Shown piece by piece: positions 7,355 through 27,957 of a stretch of 64,000 nucleotides of DNA. A program made the translations under genes and the position numbers. Source of the stretch: Curtobacterium flaccumfaciens (lineage in GTDB: Bacteria > Actinomycetota > Actinomycetes > Actinomycetales > Microbacteriaceae); assembly GCA_029689965.1 (NCBI GenBank), contig CP121450.1:1364001-1428000 (forward strand), given 5' to 3'. Within the stretch, counting starts at the first letter, position 1, and each line of letters opens with the position of its first letter. Under the pieces are notes generated by a model. The model saw only the letters and a list, made by a program, of their open reading frames with translations. It was not told where the DNA came from and made no database searches.

Positions 7355-7383
7355 TGTGTCTCCTTTGCGTCGTTGCCGAGGCT

Positions 7384-7396: not shown

Positions 7397-7558
7397 GTCA
7401 TGCGCATTTCCGAAAACGGTGTCCACGTTTCCGTTTCATTTCATTCGGGACGTGCCGACCCGGACATTCGTCGATCCTCGTCGCACCGGGCCTCTCGCTG
7501 AAGGCTCCTGGCATCGCCGATCAAAATGCGTCGAGAGGTTTTCGCTATGTCGGGGAAT

Positions 7559-9074: not shown

Positions 9075-9108
9075 CTGGACTCCTTTGTTCGTGGTCGTGG
9101 GGTCGTTC

Positions 9109-10019
9109 TCAGGCGCGTCCGAGCCGATGGAGGACGGCGGCGCGGACGACCTCGAGCGCGGCTTCCGCGGCCAGCGAGAGCGGCTGGCCGTCCGGTGTCG
9201 CGAGGGCGAGCGCGGTGACGAGGGACGGGTCGACGATGCGGTAGAGCCGGACGGCGTCCCGTGGGAACATCGACTCCGCGGCGGCCTTCGGCAGCACGGT
9301 CATGCCGAGTCCCAGCTCCACCGCCTCGGCGAGCGGACGTGTGTGGTCGAGTTCGACGACGACGTCGAGCGTCAGCCCCGCGTGCGCGAACGCCTGCTCG
9401 AGGGACCGCCGCACGGTGTGCGTCTGGTTCGGCATGATGAACTGCGCCGTGGCGAGGGCCGCCAGGGGGACAGAATGGTCGGTGCTGCCGGGGATCTCCT
9501 GCCAGCGCGGTGCGACGAGGTACAGCTTCCTCGGTCGTCAATCGCTCGAACCGCACACCGCGGACGGGGCCGGGTTCGTAGATGAGGGCGGCGTCGATCT
9601 GCCCATGGTGAGCGCCTGGCTGTGGATCACGGTCAGGGTCTCTACTACTCGCGTGACGATCCGGGGTGCTGCGACCGGATGGACTGCAGGATCGGCACGA
9701 CCATCGTGCTGGCGAGGCTGTAGCTGGCGAGGCCGAGGGTGACGATGCCGCCCGGGCTGGTGGCGCCGCTGACGATCTCGTCGCGCGCGGACTCCTCGAG
9801 CCGGAGGATGCCCTTCGCGTAGCGGTAGAGCGCCAGACCGGCTGGTGTCGGGACGACGCCCTTGCGGCTCCGGAGCAGCAGCTGCTGGCCGAACTCCTGT
9901 TCCAACGCGGACACGTGCTGGCTCAGCGCCGGCTGCGCGAGGTGCAGCACCGCGGCGGCACGCGTGATCGCACCGCAGTCGACCACGGTGACGAAGTAGG
10001 AAAGGCGTCGAGTTTCCAT
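9109..10019 (-). CDS. LysR family transcriptional regulator (three indels)
   Basis: The N-terminal winged helix is intact: METRRLSYFVTVVDCGAI, then AAAVLHLAQPALSQHVSALE. The linker helix and the start of the effector domain follow. The C-terminal third is in another frame, with GLGMTVLPKAAAE typical of the family. Between them the frame changes three times: near 9662 (GGG to GG), near 9608 (GGGG to GGG) and at 9527-9528 (one extra base, GAGCT read as GAAGCT on the coding strand). The restored length is 303 residues. It is divergent from pxpA and probably controls that operon through the palindrome at 10047-10065. Confidence 0.85.
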
Positions 10020-10046
10020 ATGTGATCAGCGATGGTACCGGACTTT

Positions 10047-10065
10047 CCATAAGGCCAATTTATGG
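10047..10065. promoter_or_regulatory. LysR-type operator between lysR and pxpA
   Basis: The inverted repeat CCATAA-(7)-TTATGG sits in an AT-rich island, unusual for this GC-rich sequence, 28 bases from the lysR start and about 80 bases before pxpA. Position and shape fit a shared LysR-type operator for both divergent transcripts. Confidence 0.6.
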
Positions 10066-10146
10066 TGGCATTCCATCTCGATATTGGCCGAAACGGCGCG
10101 ACGTCGTTTGACTTGACGGCAATCGACGACACGACGGAGGTGCCTT

Positions 10147-10935
10147 GTGACGGGCAGGAAGATCGATCTCCTCGCCGACCTCGGCGAGGGTTTCGGGGCG
10201 TACCGGATCGGCGACGACGAGGCACTCCTCGAACTCGTGACCTCCGCGAACATCGCGTGCGGGTTCCACGCCGGTGACCCGCAGGTGATGGACGCCACGG
10301 TGGGCGGATGCGTCCGTCGCGGTGTCGGCATCGGCGCACACCCAAGCTTCCCCGACCTGGTGGGCTTCGGCCGTCGCGCGATGGACCTCACCGCGGAGCA
10401 GGTCCGGACGGACACGCTCTACCAGCTCGGCGCACTGGACGCCTTCGCCCGCGCGCACGGCACCCGCGTGACGCACCTCTGCCCGCACGGCAAGCTCGGC
10501 AACCTCGTGATCGTGCGCGAGGACTACGCGCAGGCCGTCGTGGACGCGATCGTGCAGTACGACAGCTCGATCGTGGTCGTCACCCAGCCCGGCGAGGTGC
10601 AGCGAGCCGCGGAGCGCGCCGGCATCCGGATCGCCATGGTCGCGGCGATCGACCGGAACTTCGAAGACGACGGCACCCTCACGCCCCGTTCGCACCCCGA
10701 CGCGATGGTGCACGACGTCGACCAGATCGTCGAACGCACCGTCAGGATGGTCCGCGACGGCGTGCTGCGGTCGCGGACCGGCGTCGACATCCCCATGGTG
10801 GTCGACTCCGTGCTCCTGCACGGCGACGGGCCGGAGGCGCTCACCGTCGCCAGGCGTGTCCGCGACGCCCTGCTGGCCGTCGGCGTGGAACTGGCGCCGC
10901 TCGCACGGATCGTGGAGGCGAGGGCAGCGGCGTGA
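10147..10935 (+). CDS. pxpA: 5-oxoprolinase subunit A (LamB/YcsF family)
   Basis: A 262-residue protein of the LamB/YcsF family, the subunit that in the PxpABC complex helps open the lactam ring of 5-oxoproline using ATP to give glutamate. Family motifs include the start IDLLADLGEGFGAYRIGDD, ANIACGFHAGDP, GAHPSFPD, CPHGKLGN and the late VLLHGDGP. It starts at GTG 10147. It is the first gene of a run of 16 coupled genes and its stop overlaps the next start (GTGA). The frame is intact. Other lactams as substrate are possible, because homologues are often annotated only by similarity. Confidence 0.85.
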   Translation: MTGRKIDLLADLGEGFGAYRIGDDEALLELVTSANIACGFHAGDPQVMDATVGGCVRRGVGIGAHPSFPDLVGFGRRAMDLTAEQVRTDTLYQLGALDAFARAHGTRVTHLCPHGKLGNLVIVREDYAQAVVDAIVQYDSSIVVVTQPGEVQRAAERAGIRIAMVAAIDRNFEDDGTLTPRSHPDAMVHDVDQIVERTVRMVRDGVLRSRTGVDIPMVVDSVLLHGDGPEALTVARRVRDALLAVGVELAPLARIVEARAAA

Positions 10936-11695
10936 GAGCGGTCGAGATCGCGCCGTGCGGCGAGGGCGCCGTCAGGGTGCTGTTCCCCGGGAACGACCCG
11001 GAGGAGCAGTGGTCGTGCGTGCACCGGGTCGCGGAGCGCTTCGCGTCCGTGCCGCTGGAGGGCGTGTACGGGGCGGTCCCGACCTACGACTCGATCCTGG
11101 TCGAGTTCGATCCGGTGGTCCACGCGTTCGCGACCGTCGAGCCCCTCGTCCGTCTGGTCGCCGAAGCGGCGCTGGAGGGCCGGGGACCGGCTTCGACAGG
11201 ACACCCCGTCCGCGCTCCGCGCGCGTTCACCCTCCCTGTCGTCTACGGCGGCGAACACGGACCGGACCTCGGCTTCGTCGCGGAGCACCTCGGCCTCGAC
11301 GAGCAGTCCGTCATCGACCTGCACACCGCGGGCACGTACGTCGTCCGCTGCCTCGGCGGACCGGCGGGATCCTGCATGACCGACGGTCCGGCGTTCTCTG
11401 CGCCGATCCCCAGGCTGCCGGACCCCCGGCTTGAGGTGCCGCCGAACGCGGTCTCCGTCGCCGGGGCGCAGGGCGTCGTCGGACCGGTGCGGTCGCCGAG
11501 CGGCTGGCGTCTGATCGGGCTGAGTCCGGTGCAGGTCATGGACAGGGACACCGAGGAACTCGTGCCGTACCGTCCAGGGACGTCATCCGCTTCCGGGCCA
11601 TCGCGGCCGACGAGTGGGACGCGCTCGCCGACACCCGTCTGTGGCAGCTCGCCGAGCCGCTCCGCGACCCGACGCCGGCCGAGACCGCCGCATGA
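10932..11695 (+). CDS. pxpB: 5-oxoprolinase subunit B (KipI-like)
   Basis: Restored to 254 residues, this is the allophanate-hydrolase-subunit-1-like partner of PxpC. Seen are IAPCGEGAVRVLF at the start, VPTYDSILVEFDP, the PVVYGGEHGPDL segment, the glycine-rich stretch with GSC (mid-protein) and GWRLIGLSP near the end. The frame changes near 11578, where CCAGGGGACG has lost a G; restoring it gives RPGDVIRF, the expected motif. The start GTG overlaps pxpA by four bases and the stop overlaps the pxpC start. Confidence 0.85.
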
Positions 11696-12708
11696 ACGTC
11701 ATCAGTGCCGGGATGGCGGTCGTCACCGACCTCGGCCGCCACGCGGGACCGTCCATCGGGCTCTCCGTCAACGGGGCGCTCGACCAGCACGCCGCACGCA
11801 CCGCCAACGTCCTGGTCGGCAACGACGACCGCGCCGCCCTGGTCGAGGTGACCGCGAGCGAGGTCGTCGTCGAGTTCGACCACGACCAGGTAGTCGCCGT
11901 CACCGGAGCGCAGGCGCTCGTGCTTGTCGACGACGACGTCGCCCCGTGAACGGCCCCGTCGGGGTGCCCGCGGGGAGCGTGCTCACCGTGCGGGTGCTCG
12001 ACCAGGGCGTCCGGACCTACCTCGCGGTGCGCGGCGGTCTCGACGTCCCGACGTTGCTCGGCAGCTGCGCTCCGGACACGATGATCGGGTTCGGCGTCCG
12101 GCTCGCCCCGGCACCGCCGTCGCCGAACGATCGCGCGGCCCTCAGCTCGTCAACCCGTTCTACGGCAGGCCCGTCTTCGTACTCGGCGCCCCCGGCCCGC
12201 GCTGGACCCCGCGACCGGTCATCGACGTCACCGACGGCCCGGACGTGCACGAGTTCGGGACAGCGCCGAGCGTCTCTACGGGCAGGACTTCGAGGTGAGC
12301 TCGCGGAGCAACCACGTCGGCCTGCGGCTGTCCGGAACGCCACCGGTGCGATCGTCGAGCGCCGAGGTGCTCTCGCGGGGCGTCCCCGTCGGTGCCGTCG
12401 AGGTGCCGTCGCCCAGCGACCTCCTCGTCCTGCACCGCGGACGCGGCGTGACCGCCGGCTACCCCGTTCTCGCGGTGCTGACCACCGCCTCGCTCGACGT
12501 CATGGCACAGGTCCGGCCCGGTCAGCAGGTCCGGTTCCGGCCGACGACCGTGCGCGAGGCACGTGCCGAGCACCTCGCGAGGACCGTCGCACTCGACCGG
12601 CTGCGCACCCGCTGCTGGAGCGCACTCGAATCCGTCGGCCTCCGGGGCTTCGGCCTCGGACGACCGAACCCGACCACGCCGTCCCACCCAGAAGGAGTAA
12701 TCCCGTGA
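11692..12708 (+). CDS. pxpC: 5-oxoprolinase subunit C (KipA-like; three frameshifts)
   Basis: The biotin-dependent-carboxyltransferase-like (allophanate hydrolase subunit 2) component, 339 residues when restored. Pieces in order: SVNGALDQHAARTANVLVGN at the N-terminus, TVRVLDQGVRTYLAVRGGLD, PVFVLGAPGP, then RSNHVGLRLSG and GYPVLAVLT. Frames change near 11945 and 12116 (each a C run of five read as four) and near 12259 (GGGG read as GGG). PxpB and PxpC normally form a heteromer with PxpA. The stop overlaps the next gene's GTG. Confidence 0.85.
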
Positions 12709-13381
12709 TCCACGTCCACACCCGCATCGACCGCCCCTCCGCCGACAGCGTCCGTCGGCTGGCGGTGTTCTCCTCGGCGACGATCCACGAAGCGCAGGGC
12801 CGCAAGGGAGCGCTCTCGCACCGGATCAAGCCGATCGACCGGTCGATGTCGTTCTGCGCCCCGCCGTGCCCGTGCAGGCGAGTCCCGGCGACAACATCAT
12901 GGTGCAGGTCGGCATCACGTACGCCGAACCGGGCGACGTCGTCATCGTTGCCGCCGGTGAACTCGAGCAGTCCGGCTCGTTCGGCGACGTCCTCGCCACG
13001 GCGTCGAAGTCGAAGGGCCTCGCCGCGTTCGTCACCGACTCAGGCGTCCGCGACAGCGCCGACATCATCGAGCTGGGCTTCCCGGTGTTCTCGCGCACGG
13101 TTTGCATCGAGGGCACGGTCAAGGAGACCCTCGGCACGGTGAACCAGGCGATCGTCGTCGGTGGGCAGGTCGTCCGCCCCGGTGACCTGCTCCGCGGCGA
13201 CGCGGACGGCGTCGTCGTCGTGCGCAAGGAGGAGATCGAGGACGTCATCTCCGCCTGCCAGGCACGCGAGGACCACGAGGCCGAGCTGCGCGAACGGCAC
13301 CGCCGGCAGGAGGGCAGCGTCGCGGAGCTGCACGGACTCGTCGAGAAGCTCCGCGCCAAGGGACTGGTGGTCGAGGAGTGA
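12705..13381 (+). CDS. RraA-like aldolase/decarboxylase
   Basis: A 225-residue protein (restored) of the RraA/HMG-aldolase superfamily. Catabolic members cleave 4-hydroxy-4-methyl-2-oxoglutarate-type acids or decarboxylate oxaloacetate. Visible are SSATIHEAQGRKGAL at the N-terminus, PGDNIMVQVGITYAEPGDV, the ligand region FVTDSGVRD and GDLLRGDADGVVVV near the C-terminus. A charged helical tail of about 45 residues follows. A C run near 12858 is one base short. It starts at GTG 12705 behind GAAGGAG and overlaps pxpC. Within this operon, a role in splitting a hydroxy-keto-acid intermediate is plausible but unproven. Confidence 0.75.
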
Positions 13382-14517
13382 GCCGCGGCACCACCCTCCT
13401 CGCCGCCCGCCGTGATCGGCTCCTGGGGGTCATGGTTGCAGGCGGTGCCGACGCGGTCGTGGTCGAGGGGCCGGGTGCGATCGCGTTCCTGACCGACCTG
13501 GACGTTCGTTCGTTCTCCGACCGGTCCGTCCTCGCGACGGTCACCGCCGACGGTGCAGCCGAGGTGGTCGTCTCCGCAGCCGACCGGTGGCGCGTCGACG
13601 GTCTACCGGTGCAGGACACCGTGACCGTGTGGGCCGTCGGAGCTGACGCGAGCGACGCCCGTCGCGACGCCCGGGCTGCCGCCGTCGCGCGCGCCACCGC
13701 CGGCCATGCCCGCGTCGCGTTCCCGGTCGGGTCCGCGCACGCCCACGGGGCCGACGACGTCGCGGATTCCGAGCAGCTCGTCGCCGAGGCGGCGACGGTG
13801 CTCGACGCCGACGCGATCCGCCGGGTCCGCGCCGCCGTCGACCTGGCCGACATCGGGTACACCGCGATCGTTGACCGCATGCACCCCGAGCTCCGGGTCC
13901 TCGAGATCGTCCGGAACGTCGACCGGTCCCTGCGCGCAGCCGGTGGTGGCGGCTGGTGGTCGCCGACGGAGAACCCAGCGACCACCTCGATGCTGCCGTA
14001 CTCCTCGCACGACGCGATCGCGGTCCTCCTGGATCGACGTGTCGACGACGGCGTCCTCGACAGGACCGCACTGCTGCCCTTCGTGCTGCACCCGCTGTCC
14101 GAACTGCACACGGGGGCCGCCGGCACGACCATCACGTTCTGCCCGCCGGACGCTGCGACCCGCTCGGCGTCGGAGCGACTCGGCGACGCGATCCGAGCCG
14201 CCGTCGACGCGGTGCGTCCCGGCGCGGTCGGCTCCGAGGTGCACGCCGCGTTCAGCCGGGTCATCGGTGCTGACGTCGCGGACGTGGACCGCGATCAGGT
14301 CGTCGGGCACACGCTCGGCACCGGGCCGATCGGCCCTGTGCTCGCCGCCGGGTCCGACCACGTGGTCCAGCCGGGTTCGGCGTTCACGATCCGGGGACAC
14401 CTGCACCCGGCGGACCCGACACGGCAGGGCATCGCGTTCCAGACCTCCGTCCTCGTCGGCGACGACGGCCCCGAGGTGCTGGACCGCGTCCCGATGCGAC
14501 TGATCGAGCTCTACTGA
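13378..14517 (+). CDS. M24-fold protein, metal site apparently lost
   Basis: A 379-residue, single-frame protein with the creatinase/aminopeptidase-P layout: an N-terminal domain of about 140 residues and a pita-bread-like C-terminal domain. Of the usual five metal ligands only the histidine in GHTLGTGPIG is evident. The Asp-Asp pair is not seen, and the final acidic position reads FQTSVLVGDDGPEVL with Gln where Glu is expected. It may be a pseudoenzyme or use different chemistry; ectoine hydrolases belong to the same fold, but I see no specific support for that. The start GTG overlaps the RraA-like gene by four bases. Confidence 0.65.
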   Translation: MSRGTTLLAARRDRLLGVMVAGGADAVVVEGPGAIAFLTDLDVRSFSDRSVLATVTADGAAEVVVSAADRWRVDGLPVQDTVTVWAVGADASDARRDARAAAVARATAGHARVAFPVGSAHAHGADDVADSEQLVAEAATVLDADAIRRVRAAVDLADIGYTAIVDRMHPELRVLEIVRNVDRSLRAAGGGGWWSPTENPATTSMLPYSSHDAIAVLLDRRVDDGVLDRTALLPFVLHPLSELHTGAAGTTITFCPPDAATRSASERLGDAIRAAVDAVRPGAVGSEVHAAFSRVIGADVADVDRDQVVGHTLGTGPIGPVLAAGSDHVVQPGSAFTIRGHLHPADPTRQGIAFQTSVLVGDDGPEVLDRVPMRLIELY

Positions 14518-15313
14518 TGGAGGCCACGACCGTGACAGCAACACCGTCCACCGAACTCCGCGACGGCGTCACCATGCCCCTGGTCGGGTTCGGCACCCAC
14601 CCGCTCCGCGGCCGGCCGGCGACCGAGGCCGTGCTGCAGGCACTGGAGACCGGGTACCGCAGCGTCGACACCGCAGCGCGGTACCGCAACGAGGACGCGG
14701 TCGGCGCCGCGCTGCGCGAGTCGCCGGTCCCGCGGTCCGAGGTGTTCGTCACCACGAAGCTGCCGCCGGACTCCGTCGGCATCGAGCGCGAGATGCTCGA
14801 GACGAGCCTCGCTGCGCTCGGCCTCGACCAGGTCGACCTGTGGTTGCTGCACTGGCCGCCGGGCGGGAGTGCCGGAACGTCGGCCTGGAGGCGCATGGTC
14901 GCGCTCCGCGACGAGGGGCTCGTCCGCGCGGTGGGCGTCAGCAACTTCCGGATCGCGCAGCTCGACGAGCTGCACCGCGCGACCGGCGAGTACCCGGCGC
15001 TCGTGCAGCGACAGTGGAGCCCGGTGCACTTCAGTCCGCGCTACCTCGCCGAGTGCACTGCGCGCGGCGTCGCGGTCGGCGCGCACAGCCCGCTCCGGAG
15101 CGCGCGCCTCGACGACCCGTCCTGGTCAGGGTCGCGGACGCCCACGGCGTCGGCGTGCCGCAGGTCATCGTCCGATGGAACGTGCAGCACGGCGTCGCCG
15201 TCCTCCCGAAGTCCGCGAACCCGGAGCGCATGCGCACCAACCTCGACGTCACGGGCTTCCGGCTCACCGACGACGAGATCGCCGCGATCGACGCGTTGAG
15301 CGAGCTCGAGTGA
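14517..15313 (+). CDS. aldo/keto reductase
   Basis: A NADPH-dependent carbonyl reductase, 265 residues restored, of the short prostaglandin-F-synthase/2,5-diketogluconate-reductase type. The catalytic tetrad is visible: Asp51 (DTAARY), Tyr56, Lys81 (TTKL) and His112 (LLHWP). Cofactor segments GVSNF and LPKSANPERM are also present. The frame changes near 15121, where GACCCCGTC has lost a C, before VRVADAHGV. It overlaps the M24 gene stop by one base (TGATG) and the next GTG by four. Related enzymes reduce diketo-sugar acids, which suits the neighbouring dehydrogenases. Confidence 0.85.
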
Positions 15314-16265
15314 CCGGCCGGTCCGCCGACCCCACCATCGCCGTGATCGGCCTCGGGCCGATGGGTGCCCCGGTCGCCGGCCACCTCGCCGGGGCCGGGC
15401 ACCGGACATCGGTGTGGAACCGCACGGCATCGGTGGCGGAGCAGCTCGCGTCATCCGCGGCCGGCTCTGCGATGCGAGCGGTGCCGGAACCCGGGGACCT
15501 CGTCGCCGAGGTGGTGTTCACCGCCCTGCCCGACGTGGAGCAGTTCGACGCCGTCGTCGGCGATCCGGTGCTCGAGCGGTGGGCACGGACCGGCACACGC
15601 GTCGTCGTCGTGCTCTCGACCACGTCGGTCGACAAGGTCCGGGCGCTGGGAGAACGCCTCCGCCCGTACCGGATCACGGTGGTCGACGCGCCGATGAGCG
15701 GCGGTGACAGCGGCGCGCGGGCCGGCACGCTCAGCCTCATGGTGGGAGCGGACGATCGCACCTTCGCCGAGCTCGAACCCGTGTTCCGCGCGTTCGCCAC
15801 CACGGTGGAGCGGCTCGGCTGCTCGGTGCGGGCACCGCGGCGAAGCTGTGCAACCAGGTCGTCGTCGCCGGGACGCTCGCGGCGCTCGCCGAGGCGATCG
15901 AGCTGGCCGACGCCGCCGGACTCGACACGGTGCAGGTCGTCCGGGTGCTCGAGGGCGGTCTCGCGTCGAGCGCCGTCCTGCGTGCGAAGCAGCGGAACCT
16001 CGTCGACCACGACCACCGACCGGGTGGGAGCCTCCGCAACCAGGTGAAGGACCTGGACCACGCGCTCGCGCTCGCCGCATCGGTCGGCGCCTGGACTCCG
16101 CAGACCACCGCCGCACGTGCCACGTTCGGCACGGCGCTCGACGCCGGGATGGGCGACCTCGACCACAGCGCGGTGCAGGAGGTGCTGGTCCCGGCCGGGT
16201 CCTCGCATCGCTATGGATCCATCACGAAAGCCGATGGTTCCGCCAATGACTCCACGAATTCTTGA
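15310..16265 (+). CDS. beta-hydroxyacid dehydrogenase (3-HIBADH family)
   Basis: A 318-residue (restored) NAD(P)-dependent oxidoreductase with IAVIGLGPMGAPVA at the N-terminus, the substrate motif DAPMSGGDSGARAGTLSLMVG, and a catalytic-lysine region AAKLCNQVVV after the frame change near 15822. The family oxidises 3-hydroxyisobutyrate, tartronate-type or C4 sugar acids. The last residues are less conserved and the sequence ends at TGA 16263-16265. It overlaps the reductase upstream and lies 16 bases before the aminotransferase. Members such as LtnD act on threonate, a notable link to the OtnK/OtnC locus 20 kb away, but this is inference. Confidence 0.8.
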
Positions 16266-16281
16266 TCCTACGGTGATTCGC

Positions 16282-17532
16282 ATGACGGACTTCCCCCTCG
16301 CACCCCGCGTGCACCGCATCCAGGAGTCGCCGAGCGGCCTCGCCGCCGAGCGGGTCCGCCAGCTCCGCGCCGACGGGCGCCAGATCCTCGGTCTGACCGT
16401 CGGCGAGCCGGACTTCGACACTCCCCAGCACATCAAGGACGCCGCCGTCCGCGCGATGGAGGCGGGCGAGACGAAGTACACCTCCGTGAACGGGACGCCG
16501 GCGCTCCGTGCCGCGATCATCGACCGGATGGAACGGTGGACCGGGCACCGGTACGACGCGTCGGAGGTGACGGTCGGGGTCGGCGGCAAGCAGGTCATCG
16601 CGATGGCGCTGATGGCGACCGTCGAGGACGGCGAAGAGGTCGTCATCCCGGCTCCGTACTGGGTGTCCTACCCCGACATGGTGCTCCTCAACGGCGGCAC
16701 CCCGGTGGTCGTCGCGGCGAGTGAGGACGACGGCTTCAAGCTTACCCCGGACGCGCTCGAGGCGGCGATCACGCCGAGGACACGGTGGGTGATCCTCAAC
16801 ACGCCGAGCAACCCGACCGGCGCCACCTACACGCTCGACGAGCTGCGTGGCCTGGCGGACGTCGTCGCACGGCACCCCGGCGTCTTCGTCCTCACCGACG
16901 AGATCTACGACGAGATCAGCTACCTCGACGGCAAGACCCCGACCTTCGTCGAGGCGGCCCCGGAACTCGTCGACCGCGTCTTCGTCGCCAACGGGGTGTC
17001 GAAGACGTACGCGATGACCGGGTGGCGTGTCGGCTACGGCGTCGGCCCGCGCCCGCTCGTCCAAGCGATCAACAAGCTCGTGTCGCAGCTGTCCGTCATG
17101 CACGTCGTCGGTGAGCCAGGCCGCTGCGGCGGCTGCCCTCACCGGCGACCAGTCCTTCGTGTCCGAGTCGGTGCAGGTCTACCGGCGTCGACGCGACCTG
17201 TGCGTCGACGGGTTCAACGCGATCGACGGGCTCAGTGCGCGCACGCCGGACGGTGCGTTCTACCTGTACGTGAACTGTTCCGGCCTGATCGGCGCGACGA
17301 CGCCGGACGGCATCGTGCTCGACGACGACACCGCGGTCACGATGTACCTGCTCGAAGCGGCGTCCGTCGCCGTCGTGCAGGGTGCCGCGTACGGGCTCTC
17401 GCCCTACTTCCGGATCTCGTTCGCCACCGACGAGGAGACCCTGTCGGCCGCGATCGCCGCGATCCGCCGTGCGGTCGGGAACTCTCCCGGACGACCGCGG
17501 TCTCCGGTTCGGACGCCGGGGCCGTCCGATGA
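16282..17532 (+). CDS. class I/II aminotransferase (aspartate-type)
   Basis: A PLP enzyme of 416 residues (restored), transferring amino groups between an amino acid and a 2-oxo acid. Fold-type I motifs are clear: LTVGEPDFDTP, NTPSNPTG, DEIYDEISY and the PLP lysine in GVSKTYAMTGWRVGY. The arginine expected to hold the substrate carboxylate is in PYFRISFA. Two indels occur: an extra C near 17097 and a missing G near 17478, so the end returns to the original frame and stops over the start of the next gene. Aspartate is a natural candidate amino donor because aspartase is in the same operon. Confidence 0.85.
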   Translation: MTDFPLAPRVHRIQESPSGLAAERVRQLRADGRQILGLTVGEPDFDTPQHIKDAAVRAMEAGETKYTSVNGTPALRAAIIDRMERWTGHRYDASEVTVGVGGKQVIAMALMATVEDGEEVVIPAPYWVSYPDMVLLNGGTPVVVAASEDDGFKLTPDALEAAITPRTRWVILNTPSNPTGATYTLDELRGLADVVARHPGVFVLTDEIYDEISYLDGKTPTFVEAAPELVDRVFVANGVSKTYAMTGWRVGYGVGPRPLVQAINKLVSQLSVMHVVGEPGRCGGCPHRRPVLRVRVGAGLPASTRPVRRRVQRDRRAQCAHAGRCVLPVRELFRPDRRDDAGRHRARRRHRGHDVPARSGVRRRRAGCRVRALALLPDLVRHRRGDPVGRDRRDPPCGRELSRTTAVSGSDAGAVR

Positions 17533-18278
17533 GCACTGCGTACATCACCGGGGCCGGCTCGGAGCGCGGGATCGGTCGGCAGCTGGCCGGACGACTCGCC
17601 GCGGCGGGCTGGGACCTCGGACTCCTCGACCTCGACGAGGGAGCCGTCGCGGGGGTCGCCGACCAGCTCGCAGCGGAGCACCGGATCAGCGCGGTCGGCG
17701 CCGGTGTCGACGTCAGCGACGAACAGAGCGTCGACGATGCCGTCGTGCGGCTGGAGCAGGCGCTTCCCGCCGCCTCCGCCCTGGTGAACATCGCCGGCAT
17801 CAGCTCACCGGTGCCGTTCGACCAGCTGGACCTCGCGACCTGGCAGCGCGTGCTCGCCGTGAACGCCACCGGCACCTTCCTGATGAGCAAGCGGGTCGTG
17901 CCGGGCATGGTCGAACGCGGGTTCGGTCGCGTCGTCAACCTCGGGTCGACGGCCATGCAGAACGGTGGCGGCACCTACAGCAAGTCCGCCTACGCGGCGT
18001 CGAAGGGTGCCGTCGAGGGCTTCAGCCGCGCGTTGGCGCTGGAGACCGCAGCCCGCGGAGTCACGGTCAACGTCGTCGCTCCGGCGACGATCGACACCGA
18101 CATCATGGGCGGACGGATCACCGACGACCGGAAGCCGACGTTCCTCGCCCAGCTGCCCGTCGGACGGCTCGGGACCACGAGCGAGGTCGCGGCGCTGATC
18201 GAGTTCCTCGTCGGTGACGACGCCGGGTACATCACCGGGGCGACCGTGAACATCAACGGCGGGATCCGCATTGGCTGA
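17529..18278 (+). CDS. SDR family oxidoreductase (first of a paralogous pair)
   Basis: A 249-residue classical short-chain dehydrogenase in one frame. Cofactor motif TGAGSERGIGRQ, active-site serine in VVNLGSTAMQ, and Tyr-x-x-x-Lys in [12 protein letters not shown] are present. It closely resembles the SDR at 19292-20082: both share ERGIGR, SSPVPF, DTDIMGGR and DDRK, so they likely arose by duplication and act on related compounds. The ATG overlaps the aminotransferase stop by four bases, and the stop overlaps the TTG start of the isomerase-like gene. Confidence 0.88.
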   Translation: MSTAYITGAGSERGIGRQLAGRLAAAGWDLGLLDLDEGAVAGVADQLAAEHRISAVGAGVDVSDEQSVDDAVVRLEQALPAASALVNIAGISSPVPFDQLDLATWQRVLAVNATGTFLMSKRVVPGMVERGFGRVVNLGSTAMQNGGGTYSKSAYAASKGAVEGFSRALALETAARGVTVNVVAPATIDTDIMGGRITDDRKPTFLAQLPVGRLGTTSEVAALIEFLVGDDAGYITGATVNINGGIRIG

Positions 18279-19243
18279 CGCCGTCCCGGCCGCGTCCGCG
18301 GCACCGGCGACGATGTCGCCCACGGTGGCTGTCTTCTCCGCCGACACCTGGCCGATCGCCGGCGCCATGCTCCAGTTCCCGGGACCACCCGGGACGGCCG
18401 CAGCGTCACCGACGCCTCCGAGGCGGAGTGGGCAACGATTCTCCAGCCCGTCGTCCGAGCCGGTCACCGCTCGCTGGAGGTGCCCAGCGCCTGGCTGCGA
18501 CTCGGCGACCTCGAGCCGGCCCGCCTTCGGGCTTTCGGCGACGTGGTCCGCGACCTCGGCCTGACGCTCCCCGGCATCTCGGTGGTGCGCGAGAGCGTGC
18601 TGCACCCCGGCCACGGGGAATCGGCGCTCGCGTTCTCCCACCGCACCATCGACGCGGCCGCGGCACTCGGAGTCCCGGTCGTCTGCCTGGGCCCGCACGA
18701 TGCCCTGACGGCGGAGCAGCGGGCAGCGACGTGGTTCTGGACGGTCCCGGGCCGCAGCCGGACGACCCGGAGACGCGCGCGCTCGGCGTCGCGCGGTACC
18801 GGGAGCTCGGTCGCCACGCCGCGGAGGTCGGCGTCGAGATCTCGCTCGAGATGTACGAGGACACCTACCTCGGCACCGCGGACGACGCCGTCCGGTTCCT
18901 CGACGACATCGGCGTCGACGCGGTCGGTCTGAACCCGGACCTCGGCAACCTGATCCGCGGGCAGGGCCCCGTCGAGGCGTGGGCGTACCTGGTCGAACGC
19001 ACCCTGCCGCGGACGAACTACTGGCACGTGAAGAACTACGCGCGGCTCGAGGACCCCTCCCGCGGCATCGTGCTGACCCACCCCACGACGCTCGAACTCG
19101 GTGTCATCGACTACCGCCGAGCCGTCGCATCGGCGATCGAGCACGGGTTCAGCGGCGCGTTCGTCGTCGAGCACTACGGCGGGGACGGCCTGTCCGTCGG
19201 AGCCACCAACGAGCGCTACCTCCGCTCGATCCTCCCGGACTGA
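18271..19243 (+). CDS. TIM-barrel sugar isomerase/epimerase-like protein
   Basis: A 324-residue (restored) member of the xylose-isomerase-like/AP-endonuclease-2 superfamily, metal-dependent enzymes that isomerise or dehydrate sugars and inososes. Candidate metal ligands are Glu in SLEMYED, Asp in GLNPDLGN, His in NYWHVKNY and Glu in FVVEHYGG. Two frame changes (near 18382 and 18721) each fit one G lost from a run of four. It starts at TTG 18271, overlapping the SDR stop; this rare start is the first in frame. The exact reaction is not predictable. Confidence 0.75.
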
Positions 19244-19291
19244 CCACACCGGACCACCCGCCGGCACCGCCGCCGGCACCACGAAAGGACG

Positions 19292-20082
19292 ATGATGACC
19301 CTTCCGCCGTACCCCGCGACGCCGTTCCCGGACGAACGGACCGCGATCGTCACCGGCGCGGCGTCCGAACGCGGCATCGGCCGGGCGATCGCACGCCGAC
19401 TCGCCAGCGAGGGCTGGGCGCTCCTGTTGCTCGACGTCGACCAGGCCGCGACCGAAGCCGTCGCCGCGACGATCGCCGCGGACGCCGGGGTGCCGACGCT
19501 GGGCATCGGCGCGGACATCACGGACCGTGCGTCGGTCGACGGAGCGGTGGCACGCGGTGCTGCGGAACTGCCGCAGATCGTCGGACTCGTGAACAACGCA
19601 GGTGTGAGCTCGCCGGTTCCGTTCCTCGAGGTGTCCGACGCCGAGTGGCGCCGGGTGGTCGAGGTGAACCTCAACGGGACGTTCCACGTCACCCAGGCAG
19701 CCGCCCGGGTGATGGCGGGGCACTCGCTCGGTCGCATCGTGAACATCTCGTCGGCGTCGGCGGAGCGCGGCGGGGGCGTCTACGGTCGTGCCGCGTACTC
19801 GGCGTCGAAGGCGGCGCTCCTCGGTCTTGCCCGGACGCTCGCCCGCGAACTCGGTGCGCACGGCATCACGGCCAACTCGGTGTCCCCGGGTCGATCGACA
19901 CCGACATCATGGGCGGCCGGCTCTCCGACGACCGCAAGCAGGTGCTGCTCGCCGAACTCCCGGTCGGACGCGTCGGCACGGTCGACGACGTCGCCGCGGT
20001 CGTGGCGTTCCTGCTGCGCGAGGAGGCTGGGTACCTCACCGGAGTCACGTACGACGTCAACGGAGGGTCACACATCGCATGA
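19292..20082 (+). CDS. SDR family oxidoreductase (second of the paralogous pair)
   Basis: A 263-residue (restored) short-chain dehydrogenase with TGAASERGIGRA, GLVNNAGVSSPVPF, catalytic serine in VNISSASAE and YSASKAALLG. The frame changes near 19892, where CCCCGGGGTCG lost a G just before SIDTDIMGGR. It has a recognisable ribosome site (AAAGGA) before ATG 19292, after a 48-base gap, the widest within the operon, so a secondary translation or transcription start is possible here. Paralogue of the gene at 17529. Confidence 0.86.
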
Positions 20083-20845
20083 CCGGAACCACCAACACGA
20101 CAGCACCGTCGGCAGCCCCGTTCTCCGCCGACCTGCGGGGCCGCACCGCGGTCGTCACCGGGTCGCGAGCGGGGATCGGCCGGTCGATCGCCGACCTGTT
20201 CCTCGCGAACGGCGCGACCGTGATCGGGCTGCAGCGCAGGCCGGCGGAGGACATCGGACCCGGGTACCGGTTCGTCGAGGTCGACCTGTCCGACCCGTCG
20301 GCGGTCGGCGATGCGGCACGGTCCGTCGTCGCCGAGCACCAGGTCGACGTCCTCGTCAACAACGCCGGTGTCAACATCCGCCACCGGTTCGAGCGGTTCC
20401 CGCTGACGGACTGGGACACCGTGCTGCAGCTCAACCTCCGTACCGTCGTCGAGCTCATGCAGATCGTCGGCGCACCGATGCTCGAGCGCGGCGAGGGGTC
20501 TGTGATCAACCTGGCGTCGATGCTCTCGTTCACCGGCGGCATCAACGCGTCCGCCTACGCGGCGTCGAAGGGCGCGATCAGCCAGGTGACGAAGTCGGTG
20601 GCGAACGAGTGGGGCAGCACCGGGGTGCGCGTCAACGCGATCGCGCCGGGCTTCATCGACACGGACATGAACGTCGCGCTCCGCGCGGACCCGGTCCGCG
20701 ACCGGCAGGTCCGTGAGCGGATCCCCGCCGGACGATGGGGCCGCCCGAGGACATCGCCGGCGCGGCGCTCTTCCTGGCGTCCGACGCCTCGCGGTACGTC
20801 AACGGCATCGTCCTGCCCGTCGACGGCGGCTACCTCGCCCGATAG
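20079..20845 (+). CDS. SDR family oxidoreductase (gluconate/KduD-like)
   Basis: A 255-residue (restored) classical [37 protein letters not shown], serine in [19 protein letters not shown] and the late IDTDMN. Similarity is closest, by eye, to gluconate 5-dehydrogenase/KduD-type enzymes that act on sugar acids. The frame changes near 20738 (a G run of five read as four); the restored sequence [15 protein letters not shown] follows the normal pattern. The start overlaps the previous stop by four bases. The next gene, an idonate-type dehydrogenase, is 14 bases downstream; in idonate pathways these two activities act in sequence. Confidence 0.84.
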
Positions 20846-20859
20846 ATCGGAGAACAGTG

Positions 20860-21899
20860 ATGAAGGCCATCGTCGCCCACGCCGCGGAGGACCTCCGTGT
20901 CGACGACCTCCCGGAGCCGGAACCCGGTCGGCAGCAAGTGCTCGTGCGCATCGTCTACGGCGGTGTCTGCGGCTCGGACCTGCACTACGCCCGCAACGCG
21001 GCGAACGGTTCGTACCGGATCACCGAACCGCTGACGCTCGGCCACGAGGTGGTCGGCGTCGTCGAGCGGGTCGGGCCCGATGTCCGGGACACGTACGCCC
21101 CGGCACTCGGGTCGCCGTCCACCCGGCGACGCCGACGCCGCCGCCCGGCGGTACCGAAGGGTCGGGCCTGAACCTCTTCCGGGGCGGCACGTACCTCGGC
21201 AGCGCGTCGACCTCGCCGCACACCCAGGGCGGATTCACGGAGCTCCTCGTCGTGGAGCCCGGCCAGCTGCGTGCGCTGCCCGACGGCCTCCCGCTCCGTC
21301 GTGCGGTCCTGGCGGAACCGCTCTCGATCGCCCTGCACGGGGTCGGCCGCTTCGGCGAGCTGGTGCGCGGCGCCAGCGTGCTCGTCTCCGGCGCGGGACC
21401 GATCGGCAGCCTGGCCGTCGCCGCCCTGCGTGCCGCCGGCGCTCGCGAGATCGTCGCCGCGGACCTGCAGGAGTTACCGCTCGAGGTCGCGAGGGCGGTC
21501 GGCGCCGACGAGGTGCTCCGGGTCGGACGCGACGAGGTCCCGGCGGACCGGTTCGACCTCGCCGTCGAGGCCGCCGGTGTCGTCCCGTCACTCGAGACGT
21601 GTCTCGCCGCGGTGCGGCCGGGCGGAACGGTCCTGCAGCTGGGGATCCTGCCGGCCGGGGCACTACCGATCACGGTGTCGACGCTCATCGTGAAGGAGCT
21701 CACGCTGCTCGGCTCGCAGCGGTTCGACGTCGAGATGGACCGGGCGATCGAGCTCCTGCGCGACGACGCCTCGCTCGACGCCGTCGTCAGCCACACCTTC
21801 CCCATCGAGGACGCGATCGCCGCGTTCGCGCAGGCCGCAGACGCATCGGTGTCGTCGAAGGTCGTCATCGCAGTCACCGAGGACCCGGAGGAACGATGA
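20860..21899 (+). CDS. zinc-dependent alcohol dehydrogenase, L-idonate 5-dehydrogenase-like
   Basis: A medium-chain dehydrogenase of 346 residues (restored). The catalytic zinc region reads GGVCGSDLHYARN and LGHEVVGVVERVG, and the Rossmann motif is VSGAGPIGSLAV. The GGVCGSDLHY signature with the following HEV block matches L-idonate 5-dehydrogenases. The usual four-cysteine structural zinc loop appears absent: the corresponding region reads NLFRGGTYLGSAS, as in the idonate group. The frame changes near 21103 (a C run one base short). ATG 20860 follows GGAGA. Likely oxidises a secondary hydroxyl of a sugar acid. Confidence 0.82.
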
Positions 21900-22651
21900 G
21901 CTACGAGGACTACCGGACGGCACTGGTCACCGGCGCATCCACCGGCATGGGGGCGGCCATCGTCGCGCACCTGCGCGAGCAGGGCCTCACGGTGCACGCG
22001 ATCGCTCGCGACGCCGCGCGGCTCGAGGAGGTCGCGGGCAGGACCGGAGCGATCCCGCACCGCGTCGACCTCGCCGACGTCGCCGCGCTCGAGGAGGCGA
22101 CGGCCGGGCTCGAGGTGGACGTCCTGGTGAACAACGCCGGTGTCAGCGCGGTCGGCAACGTCCTGACCGGCTCGCGGAACGAGGTCGACGCCATGGTGGA
22201 CGTCAACCTGCGTGCCGTGCTGCACCTGTCGCGGCTGCTTGTGCCCGGCATGGTGGAGCGCGACCTCGGGCACGTCGTGAACATCTCGAGCATCGCCGGG
22301 CACTACAACTTCTTCGGCCACACCGCCTACCACGCCACGAAGGCCGCGGTCGCGCAGCTGTCACGCCAGCTCCGGAACGACACCCTCGGCAAACGGATCC
22401 GGGTCACCGAGATCAGCCCCGGCCGGGTCGAGACCGAGATCTTCGGACGCAACCTCGGCGGATCGCCCGAGGCGATGCGCGAGGCGTGGGACACCTACTA
22501 CGAGGGGTACGAGTCGCTGACGACAGCGGACATCGTCGCGGCCGTCGACTTCGCCGTGTCGTCACCCCGACACGTCAACGTCGGGTTCGTCGAGCTGATG
22601 CCGACCTTCCAGGTCCCCGGTGGTCTCACCTTCGACCGGCGTCCGGCATGA
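21896..22651 (+). CDS. SDR family oxidoreductase
   Basis: An intact 251-residue SDR. Cofactor motif [24 protein letters not shown], serine in NISSIAGHYNF and YHATKAAVAQ. The last 25 residues (PRHVNVGFVELMPTFQVPGG) are typical of the serine/3-hydroxypropionate dehydrogenase (YdfG-like) group. That group oxidises beta-hydroxy acids, so a substrate with a beta-hydroxyl is plausible. Both ends overlap neighbours by four bases. Confidence 0.86.
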   Translation: MSYEDYRTALVTGASTGMGAAIVAHLREQGLTVHAIARDAARLEEVAGRTGAIPHRVDLADVAALEEATAGLEVDVLVNNAGVSAVGNVLTGSRNEVDAMVDVNLRAVLHLSRLLVPGMVERDLGHVVNISSIAGHYNFFGHTAYHATKAAVAQLSRQLRNDTLGKRIRVTEISPGRVETEIFGRNLGGSPEAMREAWDTYYEGYESLTTADIVAAVDFAVSSPRHVNVGFVELMPTFQVPGGLTFDRRPA

Positions 22652-24107
22652 CCGTCACGGGGACCCGGGAGGCGCGGGTCGAGTCCGACTCGCTCGGCAC
22701 CAGGGAGATCCCGGCCGACGCGCTGTGGGGCATCCACACCCAGCGCGCGGTCGAGAACTTCCCGATCAGCGGGGCCACCATCGGGGACCACCCCGAGCTG
22801 GTGTCGGCACTTGCGATGGTGAAGCAGGCGGCGGCGCGGGCGAACCGGGAACTCGGGCTGCTCGAGTACGACGTCGCGGCGGCCATCGACGTCGCGTGCT
22901 CCCGGATCCTCGCCGGCGCGGCGCGAGACGCCTTCATCGTCGACGCCATCCAGGGCGGCGCCGGCACGAGCACGAACATGTGCGCAAACGAGGTCATCGC
23001 GAACCTGGCGTTGGCGCACCGGGGCCTCGCTCCGGGGCGGTACGACGTCGTCCACCCGATCGACCACGTCAACCGCAGCCAGTCGACCAACGACGTCTAC
23101 CCGACGGCGGTGAAGCTGGCGCTGCTGAACGCGATGCGCGCGCTCGACCAGGCGAGCACCGAACTCGTCGCGGCGTTCGCTGCGAAGGGTGACGAGTTCG
23201 CACACGTCCTCAAGGTCGGTCGTACCCAGCTGCAGGACGCCGTGCCGATGACGCTCGGACAGGAGTTCGCCGGCTTCGCCCACACGCTCGAGGAAGACCG
23301 TCAGCGGCTCCTCGACGTCGTGCCGCACCTCAGCGAGATCAACCTGGGGGCGACGGCGATCGGGACCGGGATCACCGCGGACGTCCGGTACGCGTCGACC
23401 GTGCGACGGCACCTCGAGCAGATCAGCGGACGGCACCTCGCGACGGCACCGGACCTCATCGAGGCGACGAGCGACACCGGCGTGTTCGTGCTGCTGTCCG
23501 GCGTCCTGAAGCGGTCGGCGCTGAAGGCCTCGAAGATCTGCAACGACCTCCGGCTGCTGTCCTCCGGTCCGCAGTTCGGGTTCGGCGAGGTCAACCTGCC
23601 GCCACGTCAGGCGGGCTCGTCGATCATGCCCGGCAAGGTGAACCCGGTCATCCCGGAGGTCGTGAACCAGGTGGCGTTCTCGGTGCTCGGCGCGGACCTC
23701 GCGGTCAGCGCGGCGGCCGAGGGTGGGCAGCTCCAACTGAACGCGTTCGAGCCGCTCATCGCCCACTCGCTGCTGCAGATGATCGGCTGGATGACGCGTG
23801 CCTGGACCACGCTCCGGGTCCACTGCGTCGAGGGGATCACGGCGAACGAGGACCGGTTGCGTGTCCAGGTCGACGGCAGCGTCGGAGTCGTGACCGCACT
23901 GACCCCGTACATCGGTTACGCCGCGGCGGCGCGGTTGGCGAAGACCGCGCTCCTGACCCGGTCGAGCATCACGGACCTGGTGATCGCGGAGGGCCTGCTC
24001 GACCGACCGACCGTGGCGGCGCTGCTCCGACCCTCCCGTCTCTCCGGCGAGGAGCCGCCGCTCGCACTCCGCCCGAACCGCAGCTCGTCCCCGAGGAGAA
24101 CCGATGA
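22648..24107 (+). CDS. aspA: aspartate ammonia-lyase
   Basis: Releases ammonia from L-aspartate to give fumarate. The fumarase/aspartase signature loop is AGSSIMPGKVNP, with the catalytic serine at its start. Other conserved blocks are GGAGTSTNMCANEV, NRSQSTNDVYPTA, VGRTQLQDAVPM, and GQLQLNAFEP, which favours aspartase over class II fumarase. The restored length is 486 residues. One base is missing near 24050, after which the frame ends at TGA 24105-24107 over the start of the next gene. This enzyme would feed an operon product into the TCA cycle. Confidence 0.88.
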
Positions 24108-25154
24108 AGCCCTCGCTCCGTGCCGCCGTCGCGACGCCGCTGCCCGCCACGCTCCGGGAACGCATCCAAGCTGCGGAGCCCCGGGTCGAAGCTGCTCCAC
24201 GACGATGCACTGTTGCCGCCTATGCGGTGGCCTGCAGACTTCCCGGGCGACCCGTCGTTCCGCCGGACCCGGGCACAGCAAGCCGCGTTCGAGCGGATGC
24301 TCGACGACGCGGACGCGCTCTACGGCATCCCCGACGTCGACCCGGCATCGTTGGCACGGACGGTCCGCGCGAACCGACGCCTGCGGTGGGTGCACACCAT
24401 GGCGGCCGGCGGCGGTGCACAGGTCCGCGAAGCCGGCCTCGCAGCCGACGAACTCGGCAGGGTGCGCTTCACCACGTCCGCTGGAGTACACGGTGCGCCG
24501 CTCGCCGAGTTCGCACTGCTCGGCGTCCTCGCCGGAGCCAAACGGCTCCCGCGCCTGCTCGCCGAAGGGCGGACCCGCACCTGGCCGGGGCGCTGGACAA
24601 TGGGACAGGTGGCCGGATCGACCGTGCTCGTGCTCGGGCTCGGCGGGATCGGCGCCGAAACGGCCCGGCGGCTCGCCGCACTCGGAGCGCGCGTCATCGG
24701 CACGAGCAGACGAGGACAGTCCGTCGCCGGCGTGGACGAACTGATCCACCCGGACCGGATCCGCGACGTGATGCCCCGTGTCGACGCGCTCGTGACCACC
24801 CTCCCGGGGACCCACCACACCACGCACCTCGTCGACGCCGACGTGTTCGCGGCGGCCCGCGACGGGTTGACCGTCGTCAACGTCGGACGCGGCACCGTCA
24901 TCGACGAGCACGCACTGATCGCCGCACTCGAGACGGGGCGCGTCGGGTTCGCCGCACTGGACGTGTTCGAGACCGAGCCGCTGCCCGAGGGCAACGCGCT
25001 GTGGGATCGCGACGACGTACTGGTGAGTCCGCACACCGCCGCGCTCTCCGAGCGCGAGGAGGAACGGATCGCCGACCTCTTCGCGGAGAACGCCACACGA
25101 CTGCTCGACGGGCGACCGCTCCGGAACGTGGTCGACACCGTCGAGTTCTACTGA
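24104..25154 (+). CDS. D-isomer-specific 2-hydroxyacid dehydrogenase
   Basis: Restored to 349 residues, the last gene of the operon. It has VLGLGGIGAETA, NVGRGTVIDE, ALDVFETEPLP and SPHTAA with the catalytic histidine. The N-terminal domain contains ALLPPMRWPADFPGD, a motif of a subgroup often annotated as phosphoglycerate-dehydrogenase-like. One extra base at 24189-24190 (GAGCT read as GAAGCT) shifts the first 28 codons out of frame. ATG 24104 overlaps the aspartase stop. The substrate is unknown; the operon contains enough dehydrogenases for a multi-step oxidation of a polyhydroxy acid. Confidence 0.83.
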
Positions 25155-25217: not shown

Positions 25218-26681
25218 ATGACGAAAGAGCAGGACGGCCGGAAGGCGAACATCGGGGTGGTGGGTCTGGCGGTGATGGGGTCGAACCTCGCGCGGAACCT
25301 CGCGTCGCGTGAGGGCAACACGGTCGCGGTGTACAACCGCACCTACGCCCGCACCGAGGAACTCGTCAAGGAGCACGGCGACGCCGGGTTCATCGCGTCC
25401 GAGTCGATCGATGACTTCGTGGCGTCGCTGTCCAAGCCGCGCACCGCGATCATCATGGTGCAGGCCGGCACGGGCACGGACGCCGTCATCGGCCAGCTCG
25501 CCGAGCGGTTCGAGGCGGGCGACATCATCGTCGACGGCGGCAACGCGAACTTCCACGACACCATCCGCCGCGAGCACGACCTGCGCGAGCAGGGCCTGAA
25601 CTTCGTCGGCACCGGCATCTCCGGCGGCGAGGAGGGCGCGCTGAAGGGCCCGTCGATCATGCCCGGCGGCTCCGCGGAGGCGTGGGAGACGCTCGGCCCG
25701 ATCCTGCAGTCGATCGCCGCGGTCGCCGAGGGCGAGCCGTGCGTGACGCACGTCGGGACCGACGGTGCCGGGCACTTCGTGAAGATGGTGCACAACGGCA
25801 TCGAGTACGCCGACATGCAGCTCATCGCGGAGTCCTACGACCTGCTCCGCCGCGTCGGCGGGTACTCGGTCGAGGACCTCGTGGAGGTGTTCGACGAGTG
25901 GAACGGCGGCGACCTCGAGTCGTACCTGATCGAGATCACCGTCGAGGTCCTCAAGCAGCGCGACGCCGACACCGGCAAGCCGCTCGTGGACGTCATCCGC
26001 GACGAGGCCGGGTCCAAGGGCACCGGCGTGTGGACCGTGCAGAACGCGGTCGGTCTCGGCATCCCGGTCTCCGGGATCGGCGAGGCCGTGTTCGCCCGCG
26101 CGGTGTCGTCGAAGCCGACGCAGCGTGCCGCCGTCCAGGCATCGGTGCAGTCGCGGCCGTCGATCGCCGAGGTGCCCGACACCTTCGCCGACGACGTCCG
26201 CGCGGCACTGTACGCGTCGAAGGTCGTCGCCTACGCGCAGGGCTTCGACCTCATCATCGCCGGGGCGAAGGAGTACGGCTGGGACATCGACCTCGGCAAC
26301 ATCGCGAAGATCTGGCGCGGCGGCTGCATCATCCGCGCCCAGTTCCTCAACCGCATCGTCGAGGCGTACGACAAGAACCCGCAGCTCGAGTCGCTGCTGG
26401 TCGACCCGTACTTCGCGAACGCCGTCGCCGAGGGCGAAGCCGCCTGGCGCCGCATCGTCGGCATCGCGGCCGCATCGGGGGTCCCGGCACCGGGGTTCTC
26501 ATCCGCGCTGTCGTACTTCGACTCCCTCGCCTCCGACCGCCTCCCCGCCGCGCTCATCCAGGGACAGCGCGACTTCTTCGGCGCGCACACCTACCAGCGC
26601 ATCGACAAGGACGGCACCTTCCACACACTCTGGTCCGACGACGACCGACGCGAAGTCGAGCAAGAACCCTCCACCCACTGA
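25218..26681 (+). CDS. gnd: 6-phosphogluconate dehydrogenase, decarboxylating
   Basis: Converts 6-phosphogluconate to ribulose 5-phosphate and CO2 in the pentose phosphate pathway. The 487-residue protein is the full-length form with GVVGLAVMGSNLARN, NRTYARTEE, the active-site block GTGISGGEEGA, KMVHNGIEYADMQ (catalytic lysine) and IIRAQFLNRI. The frame is intact and a GAGAGGGA ribosome site precedes ATG 25218. It follows the catabolic operon by 63 bases and overlaps a GntR-type regulator by one base. This placement suggests that the operon, or a paired gluconate supply, ends in the pentose phosphate pathway. Confidence 0.95.
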   Translation: MTKEQDGRKANIGVVGLAVMGSNLARNLASREGNTVAVYNRTYARTEELVKEHGDAGFIASESIDDFVASLSKPRTAIIMVQAGTGTDAVIGQLAERFEAGDIIVDGGNANFHDTIRREHDLREQGLNFVGTGISGGEEGALKGPSIMPGGSAEAWETLGPILQSIAAVAEGEPCVTHVGTDGAGHFVKMVHNGIEYADMQLIAESYDLLRRVGGYSVEDLVEVFDEWNGGDLESYLIEITVEVLKQRDADTGKPLVDVIRDEAGSKGTGVWTVQNAVGLGIPVSGIGEAVFARAVSSKPTQRAAVQASVQSRPSIAEVPDTFADDVRAALYASKVVAYAQGFDLIIAGAKEYGWDIDLGNIAKIWRGGCIIRAQFLNRIVEAYDKNPQLESLLVDPYFANAVAEGEAAWRRIVGIAAASGVPAPGFSSALSYFDSLASDRLPAALIQGQRDFFGAHTYQRIDKDGTFHTLWSDDDRREVEQEPSTH

Positions 26682-27729: not shown

Positions 27730-27957
27730 TCCTCTCGGGTCCTTCCCGGAATGCGCCCTCGCTGCGGTGCCCGAGCCGTCCGAGTCGGCCCCTTACCGTC
27801 GTTCGGACAGTGCACCGACGGCGATGGGGGATCCGAGCCGTCAGCATGGCGACGTCCGACCGGGTTCGGATCGCGGCTCGCCGGGCTGACGCTCGGTGCC
27901 GGGGTGAGCGGACGAAGTAATGCACTGTCACGGAACGCGGCCGACCTCGTCACAGGA

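Follow-up and report, generated by a model that had tools for sequence, protein, structure and literature searches.

What does the long run of enzyme genes that begins with pxpA in Curtobacterium flaccumfaciens break down, and is it one pathway or several? In the window, that is, the 64,000-nucleotide stretch of this actinomycete analysed here (GenBank assembly GCA_029689965.1, contig CP121450.1, positions 1,364,001 to 1,428,000), sixteen gene families follow one another on the plus strand at 10147..25154. The families were called by Pfam, except for PxpA, which was named via the NCBIfam match of its orthologue at locus L023 of a relative and via solved UPF0271 relatives. A sequence-only reading had taken this run for a single breakdown pathway for a nitrogen-containing polyhydroxy acid, possibly a lactam or a sugar-amino-acid conjugate. 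Comparison with relatives gives a different picture, in which the 16-gene run is a stack of modules: (i) a core consisting of PxpABC, a pyridoxal-phosphate (PLP) aminotransferase, a LigK/HMG-type RraA aldolase and an MFS importer, (ii) a set comprising a D-2-hydroxyacid dehydrogenase (2HADH), IdnO, IdnD and gnd, and (iii) local additions. We see about an even chance that this is a composite catabolic operon, whose core (PxpABC, aminotransferase, RraA and MFS) would degrade a modified pyroglutamate and whose second module would be an idonate route.

A core module that recurs in relatives

The same gene order was searched for in other genomes, and the whole order was absent from the 58 compared (35 of the same genus), among the matches listed; within the genus, its absence rests on this one comparison. 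What relatives have is the run split into modules. Fifteen core loci, chosen because RraA lies near a pxpA of this type, were recognised: nine of Arthrobacter type (L021, L023-L026, L176-L179), one in Microbacterium (L027), three in same-genus species (L101-L103), L202 and the window itself. All 15 loci so selected also have the aminotransferase and the MFS gene, and at L202 the set amounts to six genes only, pxpA-pxpB-pxpC-MFS-aminotransferase-RraA, with a divergent TetR gene.

In the window, the core starts with pxpA (10147..10935, single frame), followed by a pxpB-type gene with a CT_C_D domain (PF02682; 10932..11695, end approximate, frame change near 11579), a pxpC-type gene with a CT_A_B domain (PF02626 in two frames and a tblastn match to the L023 PxpC in four pieces; 11692..12708, start approximate, three frame changes) and the RraA-like class II aldolase (PF03737; 12705..13381, one frame change). 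The class I/II aminotransferase lies further along (PF00155 in two frames, PRK06107 type for the L023 orthologue; 16282..17532, end approximate, frame change near 17095), as does SDR4, a YdfG-like single-frame gene (21896..22651) whose counterparts adjoin the core in Arthrobacter-type loci. The earlier mention of LysR control and two importers alongside is matched by the gene content, with a LysR gene (PF00126, PF03466) divergent upstream of pxpA in two frames at 9112..10019 on the minus strand, and MFS genes at 4341..5681 (plus strand, by family match) and 6165..7354 (minus strand, in two frames). The latter, 45% alike to the L023 MFS, is the likely counterpart of the core importer.

The RraA orthologue of L023 aligned to 3NOJ over 220 residues (E 3.5e-52), and it was this orthologue, rather than the window copy, that scored 226.8 bits against the cut-off of 179 of NF006731 and 201.7 against the 304.5 of TIGR02798. 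An Arg-Asp pair, which we take to be the catalytic pair of LigK/HMG-CHA aldolase, is kept in RraA at 15 of 15 core loci, and so is the PLP lysine motif of the aminotransferase. The window core is nearer to the Arthrobacter type (aminotransferase pieces 51-65%, SDR4 72-76%) than to its own genus (aminotransferase 38-39%). Since the core loci hold two distant types of aminotransferase (32-35% alike) and RraA outside the Arthrobacter type varies between 29 and 46% relative to L023, the divergence of both looks like replacement with function kept. In L101-L103, a Glu/Leu-type dehydrogenase adjoins RraA (by Pfam in L101, by similarity in L102 and L103).

The association was followed from both ends. 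Eleven other pxp loci have neither aminotransferase nor RraA above 60 bits, and RraA reaches that score at none of loci L028-L100, many of which are short contigs (drawn from the best 80 of 590 matches). Starting from RraA, 53 genomes have a match, and regions were examined from 20 of them plus G346, which was added because RraA and pxpA had already been seen close together there; pxp genes were found in five of these regions, L202 and the Arthrobacter-type L176-L179, whereas the remaining 16, some truncated at contig ends, had none. At L165, RraA occurs with the aminotransferase and no pxp gene. The earlier remark that no described pathway has such a composition holds for the combination of PxpABC, aldolase and aminotransferase, which is recurrent and was found in no paper of the open-licence library searched, but not for the idonate part, which fits a known route.

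Two further observations concern the same gene families. At L084 of Achromobacter denitrificans (~7000-10740), an aminotransferase 50% identical to that of L023 adjoins pxpBC and pxpA, with no RraA above 60 bits. A cluster-bearing relative has two extra RraA-like genes away from its core (G028:C1:1774677-1775219 and 1794643-1795068).

A remodelled PxpA and the route it may serve

In a tree of 98 rows, the PxpAs of the 15 core loci fall in one clade of 16 with support 100/99 (sampling started from the window PxpA, and the bootstrap is not fully settled). The sixteenth member is L022, a Nocardia contig of 10 kb. The tree takes in rows of more than 200 residues without a stop, which excludes, for example, the second pxpA locus of the window genome (L203). 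Residues were then counted in the 15 core PxpAs and in 83 others, with L022 on neither side and in the numbering of the L023 fragment. All 15 core proteins are without N4 (present in 83/83 others), K107 (82/83), A111 (78/83), Y113 (77/83), E160 (83/83), F162 (81/83) and C218 (82/83). Positions conserved in at least 85% of the 83 others and never found in the group thus number seven for the core, compared with one for a control clade of 16. In core PxpB, aromatic and proline residues are missing from positions 142-148. Judged from these sequences, the core PxpA is a remodelled variant, forming a separate clade of a known family.

This splits the earlier claim of lactam opening by PxpABC. The three subunits are indeed encoded consecutively, but standard 5-oxoprolinase activity is doubtful because the window PxpA is without residues kept by other PxpAs. 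A match to pxpA is common (at E<=1e-20, 270 of the 396 genomes searched in the order have one), and a further one was found in 6 of 6 cluster genomes, with three matches in G218, G242 and G363 and two in G306, G000 (the window genome) and G346; the count covers these six, with G015, G002 and G028 outside it.

From the gene content, its recurrence, the clade and the residue changes observed, we infer every reaction and the substrate of the following route. PxpABC turns a five-membered lactam into glutamate, an aminotransferase turns an amino acid into a 2-oxo acid and LigK-type aldolases cut 4-hydroxy-2-oxo acids. A hydroxyl at C4 of the lactam is proposed because the lactamase, aminotransferase and aldolase steps then fit together best. 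An MFS symporter would import a modified, probably gamma-hydroxylated, pyroglutamate, whose lactam would be opened to an amino acid by the diverged, ATP-dependent PxpABC lactamase; the aminotransferase would remove the amino group to give a 4-hydroxy-2-oxo acid, and the LigK/HMG-type RraA would cleave this to pyruvate and a second small oxo-acid, which would be glyoxylate from a 4-hydroxy and pyruvate from a 4-hydroxy-4-methyl substrate. More tentatively, and as the less probable extension of this reading, the core PxpABC may be a new ATP-dependent lactamase subfamily that acts on 4-hydroxy-4-substituted pyroglutamates and on no 5-oxoproline, and with the aminotransferase and the LigK-type aldolase it would make up a new pathway from such plant compounds to two small oxo-acids. 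Plants contain 4-hydroxyglutamate and its amides (PMC6350885).

The sugar-acid module and the local additions

The second module consists of 2HADH (PF02826; 24104..25154, 62-66% alike to three same-genus relatives, frame change near the start judged by eye), the KduD/IdnO-like SDR3 (20079..20850, end approximate, one frame change judged by eye), a Zn-dependent dehydrogenase resembling L-idonate 5-dehydrogenase (20850..21899, start approximate, one frame change) and, just downstream of the run on the same strand, a second gnd for 6-phosphogluconate dehydrogenase (25218..26681, a name read from the protein alone). They fit the known 2-keto-gulonate/L-idonate route to 6-phosphogluconate. 2HADH, IdnD, IdnO and gnd, possibly with the aldo/keto reductase ahead of them, would lead from 2-keto-gulonate/L-idonate via gluconate and 6-phosphogluconate to ribulose-5-phosphate. 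The Zn-dependent dehydrogenase may be said at most to act like IdnD, its best match, NF007375, being scored below the cut-off of 469 both by the L023 protein (232.9 bits) and by the window fragment (157). 2HADH-IdnO-IdnD stand beside the core in three Arthrobacter-type loci (L023, where gluconokinase follows, L026 and L176), and the core is without them in 6 of 9 such loci and in L202; IdnO/IdnD matches are weak in L027, and IdnD lies far from the core in G242 and G306. In L101-L103, gntK, IdnO and IdnD adjoin the second gnd, which therefore ties the sugar-acid module to 6-phosphogluconate; a gntK match is absent from the window above the bit threshold used.

The second gnd accompanies the cluster, there being two copies in 4 of 4 cluster genomes found in the genus and one in 10 of 10 genus genomes without an RraA match at E<=1e-8, and this backs the pentose-phosphate direction that had been predicted. 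The copies of G000 (the window gene and G000:C1:1463018-1464454) are inverted, ~74 kb apart and 99.9% identical, against a difference of ~10% between species. Because identity within a genome is also high in G002 (99.5%) and G028 (98.0%) but 88.7% in G015, gene conversion after arrival is suggested.

The M24-like, aldo/keto reductase, HIBADH-type, SDR-TIM-SDR and aspartase genes are additions seen in the window, and the genes of the run outside the two modules would be local additions. None of the 14 other core loci gave a match to aspartase, M24 or aldo/keto reductase at E<1e-5. Among 395 other genomes of the order, none showed a relative of the single-frame M24 gene (PF00557 and alignments; 13378..14517) at E<=1e-20, and the gene had no match on plasmids. 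The metal ligands of M24 metallopeptidases are Asp, Asp, His, Glu and Glu; in the printed alignment, a weak match (E 0.003), the Asp and Glu positions differ and Gly-His is kept. The aldo/keto reductase (PF00248 in two frames; 14517..15313, frame change near 15115) is 2,5-diketogluconate-reductase-like, with DkgA as best NCBIfam match, far below cut-off, and 2,5-DKG reductase A as best solved relative. For the HIBADH-type beta-hydroxyacid dehydrogenase (Pfam; 15310..16265, one frame change), the best NCBIfam and PDB matches are tartronate semialdehyde reductases, below cut-off. The aspartase/fumarase-type gene (PF00206, PF10415; 22648..24107) has a second copy elsewhere in the genome, at G000:C1:1850301. 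There remain, all named by family matches, the FabG-like, single-frame SDR1 (17529..18278), an AP_endonuc_2 TIM-barrel gene related to 5tnv (18279..19243, start approximate, frame change(s)) and SDR2 (19292..20082, one frame change, also read from its junction). In L184, a relative of the TIM barrel adjoins an SDR1-like gene; in L186 and L190, such relatives have SDR2-like neighbours, and L186 also has RpiB- and TIM-type isomerase genes upstream. These neighbours suggest a sugar or polyol route for the TIM barrel. L190 (G000:C1:600000-619900) is itself a second locus with a TIM barrel and an SDR2-like gene, where one open frame joins a 3HCDH-type dehydrogenase and an SDR.

Elsewhere in the window, a further D-2-hydroxyacid dehydrogenase gene (PF02826, PF00389; 8106..9074, minus strand) adjoins LysR. 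Downstream of gnd (27920-34348) there are luciferase-like monooxygenase pieces and then oligopeptide-type ABC transporter genes. At 36151-37641 on the minus strand, a single open frame of 497 residues encodes a class II aldolase domain and then a DeoR-type regulator, which is either a genuine fusion or the product of a frame error.

Alternatives and what the core would mean

Several points weigh against a core devoted to modified pyroglutamate. No gene is linked to a particular substrate, 4-hydroxy or 4-hydroxy-4-alkyl pyroglutamate being a proposal, and relatives of RraA are, to judge by the family name, capable of decarboxylating oxaloacetate. L022 is in the PxpA clade, yet its 10 kb contig has no RraA or aminotransferase above 60 bits, and its PxpA shares Gly 113 and Leu 218 with the core. 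Outside the clade, L035 has the same two residues and L068 has Gly 113, and the changed positions are defined by sequence, not by place in a structure. Losses of conserved columns are not clearly above the control clade in PxpB (5/32 vs 6/39, rows of at least 150 residues without a stop) or PxpC (8/45 vs 5/55, rows of at least 200 residues without a stop). The MFS gene of the window is on the opposite strand from the core, and the second pxpA of G346 is a bare match. One alternative is ordinary pyroglutamate use, in which PxpABC would yield glutamate, the aminotransferase and aspartase would release its nitrogen via aspartate and fumarate, and RraA would be an oxaloacetate decarboxylase. The L023 aminotransferase does score above the NCBIfam cut-off as an aspartate transaminase, and RraA as an aldolase/oxaloacetate decarboxylase; an aspartase is in the operon, and Corynebacterium glutamicum is reported to grow on 5-oxoproline with pxpTABC (PMC13274462). 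We nevertheless consider ordinary use unlikely, as the six cluster genomes counted have further pxpA matches, the core PxpA is without residues conserved in the others, the eleven other pxp loci are without aminotransferase or RraA above 60 bits and the 14 other core loci are without an aspartase match at E<1e-5. Still less probable is that the whole run breaks down a single sugar-amino-acid conjugate in one long pathway. In favour of this, L023, L026 and L176 have 2HADH-IdnO-IdnD next to the core, L101-L103 have genes of these kinds together with gntK and a second gnd, and stop/start overlaps cross module borders in the window; the window order is, however, seen in no core locus, and a single 16-enzyme conjugate pathway was put aside because relatives carry the modules apart, with the core free of idonate genes or IdnD far away, and aspartase, M24 and aldo/keto reductase unmatched.

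The state of the genes raises another alternative, namely a decaying operon. Frame changes affect 11 of the 16 genes, or 12 with aspartase, where the change is inferred from a match that ends 28 residues short. Eight genes match in at least two frames (pxpC, RraA, aldo/keto reductase, HIBADH, aminotransferase, TIM barrel, SDR2 and the Zn-dependent dehydrogenase), and in pxpB the second-frame match is weak (E=3) but adjoining; only pxpA, M24, SDR1 and SDR4 are in single frames. However, breaks of similar density occur outside the operon in the window, where 7 of 13 conserved genes (12.9 kb) are broken, with 10 frame changes in all; in related genomes, this is so for 4 of 42 genes (40.4 kb; five partly overlapping stretches of three genomes). 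The assembly is a single contig of 3.84 Mb with a completeness of 65.5%. For these reasons, the breaks look like assembly indels, and decay into pseudogenes seems very improbable, the more so as SDR4 (72-76%) and aspartase (65%) are close to intact relatives. The 16-gene operon of the sequence-only reading thus survives as families in a row on one strand but not as intact frames. The run was also said to be translationally coupled, with nearly every stop overlapping the next start; such overlaps (GTGA/ATGA/TGATG types, mostly 1-4 bases) were read at 10 of 15 junctions: pxpA/pxpB, pxpC/RraA, RraA/M24, M24/aldo/keto reductase, aldo/keto reductase/HIBADH, aminotransferase/SDR1, SDR2/SDR3, Zn-dependent dehydrogenase/SDR4, SDR4/aspartase and aspartase/2HADH, with the upstream stop frame assumed at pxpC/RraA, aminotransferase/SDR1 and aspartase/2HADH. 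There are gaps of ~16 nt before the aminotransferase, ~49 nt before SDR2 and 63 nt after 2HADH, and the exact junctions pxpB/pxpC, SDR1/TIM and SDR3/Zn-dependent dehydrogenase are not fixed.

The composite operon with its proposed modified-pyroglutamate core has parallels in known systems. Hydroxyproline breakdown passes through 4-hydroxyglutamate and a 4-hydroxy-2-oxoglutarate aldolase; its transamination and aldol cleavage follow the same logic as the proposed core route, which would differ in entering from a lactam and in using an aldolase of another family. The LigK/PcmE HMG-CHA aldolase (3NOJ) is of the same sequence family as the core RraA and shares its Arg-Asp pair; the core RraA is, however, paired with the aminotransferase and PxpABC, and a ring-cleavage dioxygenase is in none of the sixteen families. 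The E. coli GntII/ketogluconate and L-idonate pathway comprises IdnD, IdnO, IdnK and 2-keto-gulonate reductase. Its counterparts are 2HADH, IdnD-like, IdnO-like and gnd in the window and gntK in relatives, but here they share an operon with the PxpABC core. In C. glutamicum, pxpTABC/PxpR likewise encodes a lactamase in three genes, together with an importer of its own and a divergent regulator (PMC13274462); the window PxpA belongs to another clade with conserved residues changed, the importer of the core loci is MFS instead of APC, the regulator LysR or TetR instead of GntR, and aminotransferase and aldolase are added.

The novelty of the run lies in the core and its remodelled PxpA; the idonate part is already known. 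PxpA family models give the name 5-oxoprolinase subunit. A clade found at 15 loci with a transaminase and an aldolase, and without the residues conserved in other PxpAs, would make part of that naming wrong, and the six-gene set of L202 is small enough for a direct test of what may be a new route of amino-acid breakdown.

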